From Sphingobium sp. (GTDB taxonomy: Bacteria > Pseudomonadota > Alphaproteobacteria > Sphingomonadales > Sphingomonadaceae): a stretch of 64,000 nucleotides of DNA. How positions within the stretch are numbered: the first letter of the stretch is position 1; the number at the start of each line of letters is the position of its first letter. The notes beneath the pieces were generated by a model. It was not told where the DNA came from and did no database searches. It worked only from the letters and a program-made list of their open reading frames with translations. Shown here piece by piece: positions 28,188 to 38,654 of the stretch. The stretch spans positions 62,001 through 126,000 of the forward strand of contig JAGRES010000005.1 in the NCBI GenBank assembly GCA_020446425.1. The letters are read 5' to 3'. The position numbers and the translations under genes were made by a program.

Positions 28188-28832
28188 TTATGAACTTGCG
28201 GCTTCACCGGAATAATCGGCGCTAAGTCTGTCGACATCTTCCATGATATCCGCCAGCGCGCCTTTCTCGCTGGTGGCTGTAGTATTGCGCGAAGGCAAAG
28301 CTCCATCGTTGAGCACCTGTTCCAGCGCCGTGCGCCCGCGCGCCACGCGGCTCTTGATCGTTCCGACAGCAACGCCGCAAATCTCGGCCGCTTCTTCATA
28401 AGCAAAGCCACCAGCGCCAACCAGTATCAGCGCCTCCCTCTGGGATTGCGGCAATTCCAGAAGGGCGCGCTGCATATCGGCCAGCTCGATCTGCTTGTCC
28501 TGTCCGGCGGGAGCCGCCAGCAGCCGATCGGCCACCAGATCGTCCCACTCGCCCTTGAAACGGGAACGGCGCATCTGCGACAGAAAGTGGTTGCGTAAAA
28601 TGATAAAGGTCCAGGCGCGCATATTGGTGCCGGCCTGAAACCGCTCACGCGCCGCCCATGCCTTCAGCAGGGTTTCCTGTACCAGATCGTCCGCGACATC
28701 GCGCGACCCCGACAGGGATCTGCCGAAGGCACGCAAATGCGGAATAACCGCGGCAAGTTCGCGTTTGAAATCGGCGTCGCTCAGAGTGTCTTTGTTTTCG
28801 ATACTGTCGGAATTGTCCGAAGTGGCACTCAT
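28188..28832 (-). CDS. ecfG: General stress sigma factor, EcfG family
   Basis: A 214-residue ECF sigma factor. Region 2 (FGRSLSGSRDVADDLVQETLLKAW) and region 4 (LPQSQREALILVGAGGFAYEEAAEICGVAVGTIKSRVARGR) are intact, and the 30-residue C-terminal tail is longer than usual. In alphaproteobacteria EcfG directs the general stress response and is held by the anti-sigma factor NepR until phosphorylated PhyR removes NepR. The ATG at 28832 has GGGGAA in front. Its own upstream region carries an EcfG-type promoter. Confidence 0.92.
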   Translation of the reverse strand: MSATSDNSDSIENKDTLSDADFKRELAAVIPHLRAFGRSLSGSRDVADDLVQETLLKAWAARERFQAGTNMRAWTFIILRNHFLSQMRRSRFKGEWDDLVADRLLAAPAGQDKQIELADMQRALLELPQSQREALILVGAGGFAYEEAAEICGVAVGTIKSRVARGRTALEQVLNDGALPSRNTTATSEKGALADIMEDVDRLSADYSGEAASS

Positions 28833-28910
28833 GCATTTCCCCTGACCGCATATGGACAAGCGGCTGTCTGGTGATCCGGGCGCGGCTCGGCACCGCACAT
28901 CAAGACGTCC

Positions 28911-28935
28911 AACGTGTTAACCGGCAGACGGTTCC
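28911..28935 (-). promoter_or_regulatory. EcfG-type promoter of ecfG
   Basis: On the minus strand GGAAC (28935-28931) and GTT (28913-28911) are separated by 17 bases, matching the alphaproteobacterial EcfG consensus GGAAC-N16/17-GTT. It lies about 80 bases before the ecfG ATG and implies that the sigma factor activates its own gene. Confidence 0.75.
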
Positions 28936-28987
28936 CTATATAGGTCGAGATCGCATTTCATGCCATCACGGACATTGAGAGAAACCG

Positions 28988-29788
28988 TCAGGCCGGGCTG
29001 GTGACCGCCTCGTCAAAAAACAGGGCCTGGGAAATAGCCGCTTTGACGGTAGAGCGCTGAAACGGCTTGGTAATCAGGAATGTCGGCTCCGGGCGCTCGC
29101 CGGTCAGCAAACGCTCCGGGAAAGCCGTGATGAAGATGACCGGAACAGAAAACTGCGCCAATATATCCTTGACGGCGTCGATCCCGCTGCTGTCGTCGGC
29201 CAGCTGAATATCGGCCAGCACCAGGCCGGGGCGGTGTGACATCGCCATCGCGACCGCTTCGTCGCGGGTCACCGCAATACCGGTCACATCATGCCCCATA
29301 TCACGCACGATCATTTCGATATCCATCGCAATGATCGGCTCATCCTCGATGATCAGCACATCGGCCCGTGTCTGTTCCTCGATCTGCTTCATGGCTTCGT
29401 CTACTAGCATCGTTATGTCGGACGGACTGATGTCCATGAGATAGGCGGTCTCCTGATGACTGAAGCCCTCCATCGCCGTCAGCAGCAACGCCTGACGCGG
29501 CAAGGGAGTCATGCGGGAAAGACGGGCGTGCGCGACAGCCCGCCGGCCATCGGCGTCGCTGGTGTCCATCTCCCCATCTTCGAGATGGGTGTTCGTCCAG
29601 AGCGCATGAAAAAGACGGTACAGGCCAAGCCGGGGGTCGACATCGCTGGGAAAATCATCGGGGGCGGCGACAATCGCCTCGAGTGTGGCGCGTACATACG
29701 CATCCCCGTGCTGCTGGCTCCCGGTCAGCGCGCGCGAATAGCGGCGCAGAAAAGGAAGATGAGGATGCAGCTGCTTGCCCAATGACAT
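28988..29788 (-). CDS. phyR: Stress response regulator PhyR (sigma-like domain plus receiver)
   Basis: A 266-residue protein. The N-terminal sigma-like domain (about 1-130, LPRQALLLTAMEGFSHQETAYLM) mimics EcfG region 2 and 4 but cannot start transcription. The C-terminal receiver has VLIIEDEPIIAMDIEMIV and phospho-acceptor Asp 193 in LADIQLAD. When phosphorylated it binds NepR and frees EcfG. The ATG at 29788 gives the usual family length. It lies upstream of ecfG on the same strand and diverges from nepR. Confidence 0.95.
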   Translation of the reverse strand: MSLGKQLHPHLPFLRRYSRALTGSQQHGDAYVRATLEAIVAAPDDFPSDVDPRLGLYRLFHALWTNTHLEDGEMDTSDADGRRAVAHARLSRMTPLPRQALLLTAMEGFSHQETAYLMDISPSDITMLVDEAMKQIEEQTRADVLIIEDEPIIAMDIEMIVRDMGHDVTGIAVTRDEAVAMAMSHRPGLVLADIQLADDSSGIDAVKDILAQFSVPVIFITAFPERLLTGERPEPTFLITKPFQRSTVKAAISQALFFDEAVTSPA

Positions 29789-30175
29789 ATATTTACTCCC
29801 TTTGCCCAATCTCTCTCTGCGGCCCGCTGGCCAAAAACTGCACAGATCAACGATCGGAAATGACTCTTTCCTCTAACCGAATGCTACATGCACGTGTCCG
29901 CCCAAATGCCTTCGGTTCGGCAAACACCAGACTACAGCATATAACATTTCGAGCTATGGAACCAATGACGAGGAAAATAGTTTCCTAGCTGGATGAATCT
30001 TCATGCAGGCGTGTGATTCAGGGCGATTGGTGAAGCGGTTGACAATATATGCACAGGGCGGTTTTCCCGGGTCGTCAGCACCGGGCGGTAATTGCGGGCA
30101 TAAAAAATTTTCGCTTTTCCATTGCCCAACGTGGAATAACCATTCTACGCCGTACGGCGCAAAGGGTATGTGGTA
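29789..30175. other. phyR-nepR divergent intergenic region
   Basis: This stretch of 387 bases has no gene I can support. It holds the EcfG-type promoter described separately, and a long leader of about 185 bases would precede nepR. On the minus strand I could not find a GGAAC-N16/17-GTT promoter for phyR, so phyR may use the housekeeping sigma factor. Confidence 0.6.
29958..29982 (+). promoter_or_regulatory. EcfG-type promoter of nepR
   Basis: GGAAC (29958-29962), 17 bases and GTT (29980-29982) match the EcfG consensus with the same spacing as the ecfG promoter. It lies about 190 bases before nepR. Activation of the anti-sigma gene by EcfG would be a negative feedback loop. Confidence 0.7.
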
Positions 30176-30412
30176 ATGACCGATCAGGAACTGGGTCCGA
30201 TAAACGATATGAATAAAGGCGATAACCGAGAGACGGGCTCATTCAGTGACCAAGACAGTACGAGTACCTCACCTGCCGCGCCGCCTAAATCCCCCCCGCC
30301 CCTGACCGACGAAGATGCGGGCCTGGGCAACGCCCTGCGCAATATATACCAACAGACTGTGGACGAGGATATTCCCTCCGAAATGCTGGATTTGCTCAAA
30401 CGCCTGGATTGA
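30176..30412 (+). CDS. nepR: Anti-sigma factor NepR
   Basis: A 78-residue protein with a disordered, Pro/Ser-rich N-terminus and the conserved NepR core LGNALRNIYQQTVDEDIPSEML near the C-terminus, which forms the two helices that bind EcfG or PhyR. The ATG at 30176 has AAAGGG nine bases upstream; the GTG at 30170 is too close to that site. It is transcribed away from phyR and ecfG, unlike the common nepR-ecfG operon. Confidence 0.93.
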   Translation: MTDQELGPINDMNKGDNRETGSFSDQDSTSTSPAAPPKSPPPLTDEDAGLGNALRNIYQQTVDEDIPSEMLDLLKRLD

Positions 30413-30483
30413 TGTCCGATACGCTGATCCTGTTTTATTTTTATAGGGCCGCATGACAAGCCGGGACCGGGACCGAGATTGTG

Positions 30484-32073
30484 ATGATGAAAAACAAACC
30501 CGCACGCGCCCCGTCGATATCCGGAGCCCCCGGCTGGATGACGAGCACAGCGGCGAAAGTTTTTTTCATCATGATGCTGGCCCTGCTACCGCTGGCAGTG
30601 ATCGCAACCATTTCCAATCTGCAATCAATACGCTCGTCCGACCGCCAGAAGCGCGAAATACTGAATACCGCTACTGAGCAGAACGCCCGCCAGCTTGCCA
30701 GCGACATTGATTCCATCCGGGCGGCTCAGACAATGACAGCCAATGTGCTGGCCACGGAGTCTGATCCCGGCAATATATGCGAGCGGCTGCTGACCCTGTT
30801 TAGGACCATAGGCAATCATGATGGCATCGTTTCAAGCCTTTCACGCGCCGACGGCACCATATTATGCGCATCAGGCGGCGGCGAAATTTTGGCGGCAGGA
30901 CAGGGCACCGGACAAGGGAATGTAAATGAAGTCGAACTGTCCCTCGAGCTGGGTGGGATAGTGATCCACGATCGCAGCAGGGATGGATCCGTGCGCGCAA
31001 TGGCTCTATACAAGAATGCGGCCATGCCCCAACTTACACATGCGTCCAGTCAAAGCGTCGTTCTGGAGGATGGCAAGCGCCAGCTGGTCATTGCCGGACA
31101 CAACTCCAGCACCACACTCGGTAATCAGGATTTCCTCGTTCGCGCACCGGTGGGGCAGTTCGGCATTAACCTCGCGGTCGGGGTGGAAGACGACACATCT
31201 TCCATATCGAAATTCATCTCGCTGGTGATGCCGCTGATCCTGCTGTTTGGCGCTGCCTTTCTGGGGTGGCTGGTGGTGCGATGGATATTGATCAAGCCGC
31301 TGATCGTCCTGCAGCGCGAAGTAGCATCCTATTCGCCGGGCACTGTATTCCACCCATCACGCATCAGCCGCTTTTCATCCAGCGAGCTAGGAGCGCTTGG
31401 GGGAGCGTTCCAGGAAGTCAGCGAAAATGTGGCGCGGCACGAGGACGAGATACGGCAAGCGCTGGAACGCCAGACCAAACTGACCCGCGAAGTGCATCAC
31501 CGCGTCAAGAACAACCTGCAAATCATATCGAGCCTCATCAGCCTGCACTGGCGCGCCGCGCAGGACCCGCAAACCAGCGAATGCTATCTCTCGATACAGC
31601 GGCGCGTCGACGCCCTCGCCGTGGTTCAGCGCCATCATTATGCCGAAGTGGACGAACAGCGCGGCGTCAGCGCCCGCCCTATGCTCAATGAAATCGCGTC
31701 CGGCCTGCGTACCTCGGCACAAATTCAGAGCGGGTCAGATATCAATATATCGGTTTCGTGCGACATTCTTTATCTGCATCAGGATATAGCGGCGCCGCTC
31801 GCATTCATGACCGCCGAGCTAGCCGACCTCGTGATAGCGTCGGGAGAGGACAATGCGCCTTTCGAGATCTCGCTGACACGGGATAACAGCGACCCGGGCA
31901 AGGCGCGATTTACATTGTCGTCCTCTGTATTCTCCGAGCTGAAATCGGACGATTCCGACAGTCTTGAGTTGTATGAGCGGGTGCTTCAAGGGCTGGCGCG
32001 GCAGCTGCGCAGCACGCTCGATCACGATCCCGCCAACAAGAGCTATTCGGTGCTGATCCCCGTACTGGATTAG
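30484..32073 (+). CDS. phyP: PhyP-like histidine kinase with degenerate ATPase domain
   Basis: A 529-residue membrane protein. Helices near residues 24-46 and 245-268 flank a periplasmic sensor domain, followed by a HAMP-like linker and a HisKA_2 domain with TREVHHRVKNNLQIISSL (His 338). The C-terminal domain lacks recognisable N, G1 (DxGxG) and G2 (GxGLG) boxes, so ATP binding is doubtful. In Sphingomonas a protein of this type next to phyR, PhyP, works as a PhyR phosphatase; I infer the same role. The start is one of three nearby codons (30481 GTG, 30484 and 30487 ATG). Confidence 0.8.
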   Translation: MMKNKPARAPSISGAPGWMTSTAAKVFFIMMLALLPLAVIATISNLQSIRSSDRQKREILNTATEQNARQLASDIDSIRAAQTMTANVLATESDPGNICERLLTLFRTIGNHDGIVSSLSRADGTILCASGGGEILAAGQGTGQGNVNEVELSLELGGIVIHDRSRDGSVRAMALYKNAAMPQLTHASSQSVVLEDGKRQLVIAGHNSSTTLGNQDFLVRAPVGQFGINLAVGVEDDTSSISKFISLVMPLILLFGAAFLGWLVVRWILIKPLIVLQREVASYSPGTVFHPSRISRFSSSELGALGGAFQEVSENVARHEDEIRQALERQTKLTREVHHRVKNNLQIISSLISLHWRAAQDPQTSECYLSIQRRVDALAVVQRHHYAEVDEQRGVSARPMLNEIASGLRTSAQIQSGSDINISVSCDILYLHQDIAAPLAFMTAELADLVIASGEDNAPFEISLTRDNSDPGKARFTLSSSVFSELKSDDSDSLELYERVLQGLARQLRSTLDHDPANKSYSVLIPVLD

Positions 32074-33468: not shown

Positions 33469-33728
33469 GGCAGCGATGGTAATTAATAAAGGTTAACAAA
33501 CCGCTTTGAGGCCCGATGCAGGTTCTCAGCCCAAGGCGGTATGTTGCACAAACGCATCTTGACCCGATTGAATCAGCGTAAATATGTGTTTTTGGAGCAA
33601 CATCATGGTTAAAAAATAGTTAATGGATCGGATTCAGATCATTTGGGCTGTTGATAAGTTCTGCCCCGGCGTGCTCCTTTTGCGGCAGAAGTAGCAGTGG
33701 AAATATTTTGGGTCGCCCCGGGGGCAGC

Positions 33729-34721
33729 ATGACAGATAAAGTTCACCTGAAAACGGCTGAGCACGAAATTGAAGAAAGTCAAACTGCCAATAGCGATGAT
33801 GCTGTTGTAGCCAATTCTTCCGTTGTCGTTCCGGACCATGTTGAGCACGCTCCGAATATTCCTCTCAAGGAAGATGATAGCAGGATTGGCCAATCGAAAT
33901 TATTCGATCTCGGCCAGATCGACGTGCAGTGGGAGCCCGAGCTCAACACATTATGGGCTTTCATCACGCCGCTCGACCGGCCCAATTATAATCTGGGCCT
34001 GTTGCGCGACACCATGACATGGCAGATGGAAGCCAAGCGCGTCTTTGGCCATGACAACTCGCCGCTCAAATATATGGTCCTCGGCTCCCGCTTCCCCGGC
34101 GTGTTCAATCTTGGCGGCGATCTGGAGATGTTCGCGCGCTGCATCGAAAATCAGGACCGCGAAACCCTGCGCCAATATAGTCACCTCTGCGTCGATATCG
34201 TCGACCGCGTATGGCACTGCAACGATATGCACGTGGTCAATATCGGGCTGGCTCAGGGCGATGCGCTCGGCGGGGGCTTTGAAGCGCTAATGTGCTTCGA
34301 CGTCATCATCGCTGAGCGGCAGGCGCGCTTTGGCCTGCCCGAAGTACTCTTTGGACTGTTCCCCGGCATGGGCGCCTACTCCATATTGGCGCGCAAGCTG
34401 GGCCATGCCGTTGCGGAGCGCATGATCCTGTCCGGGAAGGTCTACACGGCCGAGGAAATGCACGAAATGGGCATTATCCACGTACTGGCCGACCCGGGAT
34501 GCGGCGAGGAAGCCGCACGCGAATATATTCAGGAAAATATGGATCGGCACAGCGGCCATGTCGGTATTTTCCGCGCGGGCAGGCGGGTGAAACCGCTGGA
34601 TCTCGCGGAGCTTCGGGATGTCGTCGATGGATGGGTCGACACAGCCATGCGGCTGACCGACAAGGACCTCAAGATGATGCGGCGCCTGGCCGCCGCCCAG
34701 ACCCGGCTGCACCGGCGGTAA
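33729..34721 (+). CDS. DSF-type signal synthase, RpfF-family crotonase
   Basis: A 330-residue crotonase-fold enzyme. The two glutamates that act in RpfF of Xanthomonas are both present, in GGGFEAL (Glu 185) and LPEVLFGLFPGMGAYS (Glu 205), with the same 20-residue spacing. RpfF proteins make cis-2-unsaturated fatty acid signals (DSF) from acyl-ACP by dehydration and thioester cleavage. The first 50 or so residues are an acidic, probably disordered extension. The ATG at 33729 is preceded by GGGGGCAGC. It is convergent with a GGDEF-EAL gene, a pairing seen for DSF systems in other bacteria. Confidence 0.85.
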   Translation: MTDKVHLKTAEHEIEESQTANSDDAVVANSSVVVPDHVEHAPNIPLKEDDSRIGQSKLFDLGQIDVQWEPELNTLWAFITPLDRPNYNLGLLRDTMTWQMEAKRVFGHDNSPLKYMVLGSRFPGVFNLGGDLEMFARCIENQDRETLRQYSHLCVDIVDRVWHCNDMHVVNIGLAQGDALGGGFEALMCFDVIIAERQARFGLPEVLFGLFPGMGAYSILARKLGHAVAERMILSGKVYTAEEMHEMGIIHVLADPGCGEEAAREYIQENMDRHSGHVGIFRAGRRVKPLDLAELRDVVDGWVDTAMRLTDKDLKMMRRLAAAQTRLHRR

Positions 34722-34741
34722 TCAGCTCTAGCTAGGCCTTT

Positions 34742-36727
34742 CTAAGCCCTTTTCGCCACCGTGTCGCGGAGCTGAGACGCCATCGCATCGCCTATCGTCA
34801 CGTTGCGCGCAATCATGTCGGTGATGACAGCGGGGCTCTGTGCAGCGGACATCAGATATCCCTGAGCATTTTCGACACCGGCTTTACGCGCATATTCCAG
34901 CTGCTCGATATTCTCGATGCCTTCCGCCACGATCTCCATATCGAGCTCCCGCGCCAGCAAGCCCACGGCGCTCACAATGGCCTGGTCCTCGCGGCTGGTG
35001 GCGACACTATTCATGAAGCTGCGGTCGATCTTGATACCGTCGAAACGATAATCGCGCAGATAGCTGAGCGAGGAATAACCGGTTCCGAAATCGTCGAGAA
35101 CAAGACGCAGGCCTATCTGCTGAAGCTCGCGCAGCATCTGGTGTGCATATCTGTTGTCGTCGAGGAAGATGGACTCGGTGACTTCCAGTTCCAGCCGACG
35201 GGCGGGCAAGCCGCTTTCCATCAATGTCCCGATCACGGTTTGCGGCAGGGAGCCTGACTTGAGCGAGGCGGGCGAAATATTGATCGCCACGCGCACATCG
35301 TCCGGCCATTCGCGGGCAATCATGCATGCCCTTTTCAACACCCAGTCGGTGATCGGTTCGATCATGTGGATGCTTTCCGCCACCGGGATGAACTCGCTCG
35401 GCATGATGGCGCCCAGGCTCGGATGGTTCCACCGCAACAGCGCTTCACATATTGCGATGCGCCCGCTCTCAATCGCGAAGATGGGCTGGAAATGCAGCTT
35501 GAGCTCGTCATTCTCGATCGCCCGGCGCAGGCCAGTCTCGATCTCATGAATGCGATGCATCCGCTCCTTCATCGACCAGGTAAAGCTGATGGCACGATTG
35601 CGCCCGTGCGCCTTCGCGTCATAGAGCGCCATATCGGCGTTCTGCATCAGTTCATCCGCGTCTCGCCCGTCCTGTGGGCCAACGGCTATGCCGATAGACG
35701 CCGTGATCGCGAGCATATTGGTCCCAACCTCGACCCCCTTGGAAATAGACGCGATGATTTCATCGGCTATCTGATGCGCGGTGACGCGGTCCATATCCGG
35801 GCATAATATGACAAATTCATCGCCGCCGAAGCGCGCGACATGGCCACGCCCATCCAGCGTAACGAGCAGGCGCTGCACCACGGTGCGCAACAACGCATCG
35901 CCGACCATATGCCCCAGCGAGTCATTGATTTCCTTGAAACGGTCCAGATCCATCCACAGGATCGCGAGTGCATCATGGCTCTTGCTGTTGGCTGCGAACA
36001 GTTCGCCCAGCCGCATCTGCATCGCCATGCGGTTCTCTACACCGGTCAGGCTGTCGAAGCGTGCGAGCCGTTCGAACTTCGTAGCGAGCTTCGATTTTTC
36101 CTGTTTGCCGCGCAACGCCTCGACCACGATATTATGCGTGGTGCGGGTGATTTCCGCCATGCCGATCACCATCGCGACCAGCACGACAGCCAGCATTTGA
36201 TACCCGATATGCCCCTCGATCCACAGCCCCAGCGCGGTGGGCAACAGCGCCAGGCAGGTCTGTCCGATCGCAATCTGTACGCGCCCGGCATTACGGCCCG
36301 CGATACCTGCGGCATAGCCGGTGGCCAGCGCAACAGGAAGAATGTGCACCATCGGATCGTCAGACCGCAAAAGCGACATCAGCGCGAATATGCCGAGCAT
36401 GGCGGCATAGGCCCATGCGCCAAGCTCATAGGCCAATTCCCAGATCCGGTGCTTGCGCGCGCGCTGCATCTGCAAATGGCGGAAAAATATGGTGGCCGAG
36501 ATCGTCCGGGCAACGGCGATGAGGCTGATGACGACAGCGCACCCTGTCAACACAGGATCATGCGCCTGCGTAGCAACCGCGATGCTGAGCAGGAATCCGG
36601 CAAACGCTCCGATAGCCAGAGAGGTAGGAGACGCGTACAGGGTCTCGGTCAACGCAACACGGATGTCAGCGTCTTGCTCTGCTCCCCCTGCGAGCATGGA
36701 ATATATTCTGGTCCAGATCTTGCGCAA
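34742..36727 (-). CDS. Membrane GGDEF-EAL protein
   Basis: A 661-residue protein. About five to six membrane helices span residues 30-205, followed by a GGDEF domain (motif intact at 301-305, RFGGDEF) and an EAL domain (EALLRW at 428-433, with DDFGTGYSSLSYL and KIDRSF). Both cyclic di-GMP synthesis and breakdown motifs look intact, so the net activity cannot be told. The sensor part is a membrane bundle, unlike the PAS-type input of RpfR. It ends 20 bases from the rpfF-like gene, tail to tail. Confidence 0.88.
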   Translation of the reverse strand: MRKIWTRIYSMLAGGAEQDADIRVALTETLYASPTSLAIGAFAGFLLSIAVATQAHDPVLTGCAVVISLIAVARTISATIFFRHLQMQRARKHRIWELAYELGAWAYAAMLGIFALMSLLRSDDPMVHILPVALATGYAAGIAGRNAGRVQIAIGQTCLALLPTALGLWIEGHIGYQMLAVVLVAMVIGMAEITRTTHNIVVEALRGKQEKSKLATKFERLARFDSLTGVENRMAMQMRLGELFAANSKSHDALAILWMDLDRFKEINDSLGHMVGDALLRTVVQRLLVTLDGRGHVARFGGDEFVILCPDMDRVTAHQIADEIIASISKGVEVGTNMLAITASIGIAVGPQDGRDADELMQNADMALYDAKAHGRNRAISFTWSMKERMHRIHEIETGLRRAIENDELKLHFQPIFAIESGRIAICEALLRWNHPSLGAIMPSEFIPVAESIHMIEPITDWVLKRACMIAREWPDDVRVAINISPASLKSGSLPQTVIGTLMESGLPARRLELEVTESIFLDDNRYAHQMLRELQQIGLRLVLDDFGTGYSSLSYLRDYRFDGIKIDRSFMNSVATSREDQAIVSAVGLLARELDMEIVAEGIENIEQLEYARKAGVENAQGYLMSAAQSPAVITDMIARNVTIGDAMASQLRDTVAKRA

Positions 36728-36854: not shown

Positions 36855-38654
36855 TTATCGGATAAAGGAGCGGTCCTTGACGGACAGGGCGCAGGCCGGC
36901 GCATCCGCCATCGTCGCGCACACGGCTTTCGCCATTTGCTCATACAGCATCCTGATATGGCTGGCTTCGTTCTGGCTTCCGCAGCGCCTGGGAATGACCG
37001 TTTCCGCATAATGATGCAGGTTGAGGTGCGGCCAATTGGGGGCGATTGTGGCCACCGCCTCGCGGGCTTCGGCAACTTTCCCGGCCGCCACCAGCGTTGC
37101 CGCGAACCGCAACGATGTATCCGGCGTTCTGAATATCACGAACGACTTGCGTCCGGCGGTCTCCGCTTTCCCGATATCGCCATTGTTCAGATAGAGCTGG
37201 TTGAGCCATGTTTGCGTCACCCATCGGGTCGGATTATCGGCGATCATGGATGCATCGAACCGCTCTGCTCTGGAAATAACGTTCTCGGGAACATGCGCGC
37301 AGGTGTAGGGATGAACGATCGCCTGAAACGCCGCCAGCCCGTTGCCGGGATCGAGCGCGACCGTCCTCTGCGCCATTTTCTCCGACAGATCCATCTCACC
37401 GGCATGCCAATAATAGCTGGTCAGGCTGGAAATGGCCTTGGGATCGTCCGACCCATATGCCAGGGCGTCGCGGGCATGGTCGATAGCCTCGCCACGTGCG
37501 CCCTGTTCCTCCATTTGGGTGTCGACATTGGCCAGATACGCTAGCTTGTCGGCCAGCACAGCATGCGCCGCACCAAATTGCGGATCAAGCTCCACGGCGC
37601 GCCGGGCATAAGCGACACGCTGCTTTTCCCACACCATACTGTCTTCAGCCTTGCCGGGCACCCAGGCGGCATTGAGATACAGGAGCCAGGGCGTATCATT
37701 GGCCCGCGGATCATCGAGCATCAGGTCCCGCACCGCCAATATGGTTCGCAAGTGCAATTCCTGGCTCAATTCCATCGCCAGCGCATCGACCTCAGAACGG
37801 CTGTCGCCCGCCGATTGTCTGGAGCCAGTCCATAGCAATTGCTCACCCTCGGTTTTCATGAGCTGCGCGCTGACTTCGAGCCCATCGCCCCTGCGCCGGA
37901 CAAAGGCGTGAACATGCAGGAACGGCAGATCGCCCGAACGAGTGGACTGGCGGGCATCATGCCAGCCCGGATCGCCCGATAAAATGAGGACAGGAAAGAG
38001 CTGCTGCCGGGTCAGGGACAGGGCGACAGCCTCATGCAATTCTTCGGCGAGTTGCAGCGCCAGCGGGTCCTGCGCGGAGGCGCTGAATTTGAGCAGCGCG
38101 ATCTGGGGGCGCGGGACCTGATCATTCTCGCCGCTGTCCCACCGCATAAACAGAAAGGCTGCAAGAGCCGCCACCACAATGACAGCCGCCGCAGCCCATA
38201 ACGCGAAGCGTGGAGCCTTCAGCGGCTCTCCATCACCCGCCACCATATCCTGAGGCGATGCGGACGGATCGTCAGGCGGGGGCTCATCGTCCGCCGAATC
38301 CGCCAAGTCCGTGAACACGGCCCCATATTGCCCCTTCGGAATCTCGATCAGTATCTTTTGCGGTTCTCCGGCCGTCACATAATAATGCGCCAGCATCTTG
38401 CGCAGCCGCCCAACCTGCACGCGCACGATGGAATCGAGCATGGGGTCAAAGGACTCATCCCGGTCGAACACGTCGATGCCGATCGTATAGCCTTTAAGAT
38501 GTTCGGTATCGTCATCCAGTGTAGCAGTGACAAGATAGCGGAGCAGTATCTGTATCTTCGGAGAAGCGACGAATTCCTCCGACGCCAGAATATGGTCGAG
38601 CTGCGACAATATTGCCTGTCTAGAAATCCCGTCCGGCAATGATACCACCCACAT
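36855..38654 (-). CDS. Membrane regulator with TolB-like and TPR region
   Basis: A 599-residue protein. Residues 1-115 form the domain common to large 'TolB/TPR' regulators of alphaproteobacteria (SPKIQILLRYLVTATL, LKGYTIGIDVFDRDESFDP, VRVQVGRLRKML), probably a DNA-binding module like that of CadC-type proteins. One membrane helix lies at about 150-170, then a TolB-like part (VPRPQIALLKF) and a TPR-like helical C-terminus. Such genes are often mislabelled adenylate cyclase; no cyclase domain is present. Its ligand and target are unknown. Confidence 0.7.
   Translation of the reverse strand: MWVVSLPDGISRQAILSQLDHILASEEFVASPKIQILLRYLVTATLDDDTEHLKGYTIGIDVFDRDESFDPMLDSIVRVQVGRLRKMLAHYYVTAGEPQKILIEIPKGQYGAVFTDLADSADDEPPPDDPSASPQDMVAGDGEPLKAPRFALWAAAAVIVVAALAAFLFMRWDSGENDQVPRPQIALLKFSASAQDPLALQLAEELHEAVALSLTRQQLFPVLILSGDPGWHDARQSTRSGDLPFLHVHAFVRRRGDGLEVSAQLMKTEGEQLLWTGSRQSAGDSRSEVDALAMELSQELHLRTILAVRDLMLDDPRANDTPWLLYLNAAWVPGKAEDSMVWEKQRVAYARRAVELDPQFGAAHAVLADKLAYLANVDTQMEEQGARGEAIDHARDALAYGSDDPKAISSLTSYYWHAGEMDLSEKMAQRTVALDPGNGLAAFQAIVHPYTCAHVPENVISRAERFDASMIADNPTRWVTQTWLNQLYLNNGDIGKAETAGRKSFVIFRTPDTSLRFAATLVAAGKVAEAREAVATIAPNWPHLNLHHYAETVIPRRCGSQNEASHIRMLYEQMAKAVCATMADAPACALSVKDRSFIR

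Follow-up and report, generated by a model that had tools for sequence, protein, structure and literature searches.

The region analysed was a stretch of 64,000 nucleotides (the window) from Sphingobium sp. (assembly GCA_020446425.1, contig JAGRES010000005.1, positions 62,001 to 126,000). It contains a gene for an RpfF-family crotonase and, on the opposite strand, a gene for a GGDEF-EAL protein with a six-transmembrane (6TM) input domain (Table 1). The two genes are convergent and therefore do not form an operon. An earlier note had proposed from the letters alone that the crotonase produces a diffusible signal factor (DSF), and that its neighbour could be a new type of DSF receptor. In the window locus, the 6TM protein takes the place which is usually held by RpfC or RpfR, and the receptor proposal is well supported on comparative grounds, namely by co-occurrence, the position of the gene, the RpfF tree and fold matches.

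Table 1. Features of the rpfF locus, in window coordinates.
Feature	Position	Strand	Evidence
RpfF-family crotonase, 330 AA	33729..34721	+	ORF (open reading frame), Pfam, NCBIfam, solved relatives, alignment
Catalytic-type Glu185 codon (GGGFE)	34281..34283	+	RpfF alignment
Catalytic-type Glu205 codon (GLPE), 20 residues past E185	34341..34343	+	RpfF alignment
Gap between convergent genes, 20 bp	34722..34741	.	ORF coordinates
6TM-GGDEF-EAL protein, 661 AA, TTG start, DSF-receptor candidate	34742..36727	-	ORF, domain and profile matches
EAL domain, residues 400-627	34847..35530	-	Domain match, alignment
GGDEF domain, residues 223-378, GGDEF motif intact	35594..36061	-	Domain match, alignment
Six-transmembrane input domain, residues 15-217	36077..36685	-	Predicted helices, alignment

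The crotonase has an N-terminal extension of ~55 AA ahead of the homologous region, and an in-frame TTG upstream at 33651 is a possible alternative start. The protein matched Pfam ECH_1 (3.4e-26), and its best NCBIfam model was NF006452/PRK08788 for the broad RpfF family (353.5 bits, above the cut-off of 177). The closest solved structures were 7zq7 and the RpfF-type 6dgn, 5fus and 3m6m; solved RpfF-type structures matched at 3e-40 to 3e-45. Residues E185 and E205 were invariant across 18 RpfF rows (alignment A1). Their spacing of exactly 20 residues, pointed out in the earlier note, was kept in 76 of 77 RpfF rows, 74 of which were counted by script and two by eye (L171 and L273, with GGGWE as a variant of the first motif); in the exception, L233, the second glutamate is replaced by Asp. 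The window RpfF falls into the family that also contains the RpfC-paired and RpfR-paired synthases and is well separated from other crotonases: in the order-level search this family gave E-values below 1e-65 vs. 2e-17 for the next match, and in the phylum sample below 1e-75 vs. 8e-26 for other crotonases. Judged by family and active site, the crotonase probably makes a DSF-family cis-2-unsaturated fatty acid. It is considered improbable that the crotonase makes a product outside the DSF family of signals, with the pair serving as a metabolic sensor module. Such a module would fit the missed cut-off of the RpfF equivalog NF053515 (187.2 bits vs. 550 required) and the separate clade of the window RpfF, whereas the two retained glutamates, the matches to RpfF-type structures and the common family with RpfC- and RpfR-paired synthases argue against it.

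In four Sphingomonadales loci (L058, L060, L061, L062), RpfF is part of a single frame of 628-688 AA, and long RpfF frames occur also in L264 and L266. The C-terminal part of the long RpfF of L060 matched an iron-containing heme-oxygenase-like domain (PF14518).

For the GGDEF-EAL protein, the multi-helix membrane input described in the earlier note was recovered as six predicted membrane helices, and both output domains were matched. The GGDEF motif was intact and invariant in 9/9 aligned proteins, as were the EAL residues E428, N483, E515, D545, D546, K566, E602 and Q622 (9/9 rows, alignment A2), which we take to be the usual active-site set. Directly upstream of the GGDEF motif, no RxxD was present, presumably the motif of the I-site. 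No PAS domain was detected by Pfam scan, and the RpfC domain set (sensor, HisKA, HATPase, REC, Hpt) was not found, only the GGDEF-EAL outputs being matched. Among members of the 6TM family, R145 shows no variation and R149 and Q156 very little; these residues are sited between and in the predicted helices 4 and 5. Homologues in Hyphomicrobiales have an additional PAS-like segment between 6TM and GGDEF, as read from the alignment. The window genome (G000) had nine EAL matches and the 6TM domain once; the other eight EAL proteins differ N-terminally, as far as typed.

Whether known DSF receptors are present was determined by profile searches of the window genome. The RpfC sensor domain (profile A5) had no match at E ≤ 1; in the control, four RpfC-bearing genomes, two of which supplied A5 rows, matched at 7e-45 to 3e-67. 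Another Sphingobium genome (G188) gave one weak hit with this profile (E 0.017). HD-GYP, the RpfG output, was absent from the genome search (PF13487; the model matched in 4/14 control genomes). The RpfR N-terminus gave only weak matches, in one 640-AA frame at the PAS part (best 5e-4), and three control genomes matched at 2.5e-78 to 1.0e-103. Thus, the statement of the earlier note that neither RpfC/RpfG nor RpfR is present agrees with these searches.

The gene opposite rpfF was recorded for loci outside the order, 20 from 349 phylum genomes and 16 from 15 class genomes. In 26 of these 36 loci, the convergent gene was of RpfC or RpfR type, matching published arrangements (PMC4504480). Among the phylum loci, an RpfC-type kinase followed rpfF convergently in eight (L229, L232-L234, L236-L238, L246) and a soluble RpfR-type GGDEF-EAL protein in six (L239-L244; in L239 the gene picker placed two ORFs between the genes). 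A 6TM protein was convergent after rpfF in L227 and on the strand of rpfF in L230; L228, L231, L235 and L245 had other arrangements. The class loci comprised 12 with a convergent RpfC-type kinase, two ending at contig ends, one without kinase and one in which the rpfF ORF was not recovered by the picker.

Two further arrangements were noted. In L059, L063, L064, L065 and L277, rpfF is convergent with an RpfC-like hybrid kinase, behind which a GGDEF-EAL protein is encoded (REC-PAS-GGDEF-EAL in L065, receiver-bearing in L277), apparently substituting for the HD-GYP output of RpfG. L058 and L060-L062 have REC-PAS kinases, plus an RpfC-like kinase in L058 and L062, which are divergent from rpfF and not convergent.

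Among 80 named rpfF loci, chosen as best matches to the window RpfF family, the 6TM-GGDEF-EAL gene adjoined rpfF convergently in 39 and divergently in seven, and was not adjacent in 34. The convergent pairs had a median gap of 13 bp, and seven of them overlap or touch. The divergent loci belong to Pseudolabrys, other Hyphomicrobiales and metagenome-assembled genomes named only as Proteobacteria. In five of the 34 non-adjacent loci (L177, L186, L190, L194, L195), an RpfC-like kinase is convergent with rpfF. By its named relatives, the window belongs to Sphingobium.

Co-occurrence, which the earlier note had suggested surveying, was determined in an order-level sample of 296 genomes, with RpfF scored as present at E below 1e-65. 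RpfF was found in 60 genomes and the 6TM input (E ≤ 1.6e-15) in 65; both were present in 52 genomes, RpfF only in eight, 6TM only in 13 and neither in 223 (Fisher 8e-37). The 6TM domain was thus present in 52/60 RpfF-positive vs. 13/236 RpfF-negative genomes, at a cut-off placed post hoc, once the distance to the following match (2e-11) was apparent; with E ≤ 0.001 instead, the counts are 52/60 and 30/236. Seventeen RpfF-negative genomes with weaker 6TM matches were scored as lacking the domain, and most of these have shorter open frames. In all 30 6TM loci fetched, 6TM, GGDEF and EAL were within one ORF. The earlier note had named a full rpfC/rpfG or rpfR elsewhere in the genome, and a lack of co-occurrence of the pair, as findings against its proposal; neither was observed.

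RpfF labels were also shuffled within nine genera (118 genomes; 200,000 trials), which gave a mean overlap of 16.1 and a maximum of 25 vs. 31 observed. In five of the nine genera, the genes are apart in all 20 double-positive genomes, and the overlap of 20 again exceeds the shuffled values (mean 9.7, maximum 17). Both genes were on one contig and not adjacent in 30 genomes, at a distance of 194 kb to 1.63 Mb. That adjacency is merely inherited gene order between functionally unlinked genes is therefore regarded as highly improbable: while the gene neighbourhood is conserved as a block within Sphingobium, as this explanation would have it, convergent and divergent arrangements both occur, the genes are co-retained at large distances and the co-occurrence holds within genera.

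EAL numbers do not account for the co-occurrence, since in two of the three genera compared (49 genomes in all) RpfF genomes were not richer in EAL proteins: mean EAL matches in RpfF-positive and RpfF-negative genomes were 8.5/9.7 (g3), 8.2/12.2 (g16) and 8.3/7.3 (g1), the difference in g1 being about one protein. In G234 and G204, which have three and four EAL matches in total, respectively, the 6TM domain is present in a 658-AA frame. The idea of a membrane domain generic to alphaproteobacteria was also rejected, since in a class sample of 240 genomes (17 RpfF-positive) the A4 profile matched at E ≤ 0.001 in only ten, six of them RpfF-positive; two of the weaker matches (G640, G695) are histidine kinases.

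Matches to the 6TM domain also occurred in other proteins. L280 and L281 are histidine kinases matching the same domain (4e-21 and 8e-10), from RpfF-positive alphaproteobacteria and not adjoining rpfF. In L144, a 400-AA protein with transmembrane helices and GGDEF and a weak 6TM match is divergent from rpfF, alongside a convergent 6TM-GGDEF-EAL gene.

A tree of RpfF was computed from 77 chosen rows; loci with no adjacent receptor type or with contig ends were excluded (L184, L192, L193, L231, L235, L245, L274-L276, L278 and others). All 41 rows labelled as 6TM-paired were on one branch (100/100), with RpfC-paired and RpfR-paired RpfFs elsewhere; five label changes suffice, the minimum for six labels. 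L230 was outside the 6TM branch, on a long branch. Rows with distant genes, three of 15 of which (L152, L154, L181) were labelled by kinship with their genomes unsearched, were nested within the adjacent rows, beside L050 and L171; therefore, adjacency is probably ancestral.

The GGDEF-EAL tree contained 59 of 82 rows after thinning. Here, 31 of 33 6TM rows were together (81/89), L230 and L279 were outside and RpfR was apart (100/100); in a smaller tree without loci below L100, 19 of 21 6TM rows were together (98/96). An RpfR with a swapped input was rejected because the GGDEF-EAL parts group separately. The proteins distant from rpfF were again with L050 and L171 (100/100), so that both trees agree there. 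L095, from an RpfF-negative genome, was placed among the distant 6TM proteins, which suggests a receptor remaining after loss of the synthase.

For the membrane input, the predicted folds of the 6TM domain and of one RpfC sensor domain both had membrane adenylyl cyclases and the diguanylate cyclase ImcA as their top hits in the PDB; by Foldseek alone, no match reached E ≤ 0.001. At the sequence level, profile-profile comparison showed no kinship of the 6TM domain with the RpfC sensor. In the predicted fold, helix 6 leads straight into the GGDEF domain. Precedents for lipid sensing by six-helix modules have been published: the CqsS membrane module made an adenylyl cyclase responsive to CAI-1 (PMC4821796), and mammalian cyclases are altered by fatty acids (PMC12414865). 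DSF sensing by PA1396, with an RpfC-like input, depends on membrane helices IV and V (PMC6536496). RpfC is reported to bind DSF through a 22-residue N-terminal stretch (PMC5391125). From these precedents and the conserved R145, R149 and Q156, a DSF site is proposed at these residues, within the membrane.

Based on these comparisons, we consider it fairly probable that the pair represents a third architecture of DSF modules, with a lipid receptor in the membrane that directly controls cyclic di-GMP (c-di-GMP). RpfF would produce a cis-2-unsaturated fatty acid, which would partition into the inner membrane and bind the 6TM bundle, plausibly near the arginines of helices 4/5. Helix 6, as placed in the model, may relay the ligand-induced change to the GGDEF-EAL part, both of whose active sites appear intact, and binding would shift the balance of GGDEF vs. 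EAL and thereby change c-di-GMP. One protein would then combine an RpfC-type membrane input with an RpfR-type output, without a phosphorelay.

Alternatively, the 6TM protein could be tied to RpfF without binding DSF, either sensing the state of membrane or fatty acids or another ligand, or binding and restraining RpfF in the manner of RpfC, with a regulon common to the pair. This is judged rather unlikely, even if the same linkage data fit it, RpfC also represses RpfF through direct contact (PMC4504480) and the fold also matches ImcA, which is outside DSF signalling. The published occupants of this position, RpfC and RpfR, are themselves DSF receptors, and all eight genomes with RpfF only have an rpfF neighbourhood of RpfC-linked type (including L060 and L061, labelled RpfC from the shared REC-PAS-kinase neighbour only), as expected if the 6TM protein replaces the receptor.

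Further genes were noted around rpfF. In the window, genes of the general stress response (a sigma factor, PhyR and a HisKA_2 kinase) cluster near rpfF at 28188-32073; in the further Sphingobium loci examined, the HisKA_2 kinase and tgt are conserved next to rpfF. Upstream of the GGDEF-EAL gene, on the same strand, 36855-38654 encodes a protein of 599 AA, for which a weak TPR match and no NCBIfam match were obtained. In L040-L042, L046, L049 and L051-L057, of the same family, rpfF directly follows exosortase-like and asparagine-synthase-like genes, so named from reading the L041 sequences and not from a search. In L036, L037, L164 and L165, a second GGDEF-EAL gene directly precedes rpfF and shares its strand, the L036 protein having a 7TMR-DISM input.

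In RpfF/RpfR of Burkholderia and Cronobacter, as in the window, rpfF is convergent with a GGDEF-EAL gene and one protein leads from signal to c-di-GMP; RpfR, however, is a soluble protein with its PAS region at the N-terminus, and the GGDEF-EAL parts are in different groups. RpfF/RpfC/RpfG of Xanthomonas resembles the window pair in that rpfF converges on the gene of a membrane receptor, a candidate one in the window, and the sensors have the same best fold matches, whereas the window protein lacks kinase, receiver, Hpt and HD-GYP and has the c-di-GMP domains fused to the membrane input. A six-helix module feeding a dimeric signalling enzyme is also known from CqsS, likened here from the literature, the adenylyl cyclases and ImcA, which differ in outputs and synthases; lipophilic ligands are established for CqsS (PMC4821796), and ImcA has been connected with iron and IsmP (PMC10904736). 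PA1396 and RpfS respond to DSF-family acids (PMC6536496, PMC4504480), but are histidine kinases, with an RpfC-like and a PAS input, respectively.

A 2015 review describes two core pathways of DSF perception, RpfC/RpfG and RpfR (PMC4504480). In the open-access literature, no report was found on rpfF in Sphingobium, or on diffusible signal factor and rpfF in Sphingomonadales. Whether Sphingomonadales and Hyphomicrobiales have a third core system, in which a one-component membrane receptor with a lipid-sensing six-helix module, folded like the RpfC sensor, the adenylyl cyclases and ImcA, controls c-di-GMP directly, is evenly balanced in our estimate. If true, the six-helix module would be a common membrane fatty-acid receptor for kinases, cyclases and c-di-GMP enzymes. 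A membrane-bound pathway of this kind, with no phosphorelay, would also bring DSF signalling to bacteria on which the searches returned no such report. Owing to the apparent likeness in fold between the RpfC sensor, the 6TM domain and the adenylyl cyclases, the reading of fatty acids within the membrane becomes directly testable.
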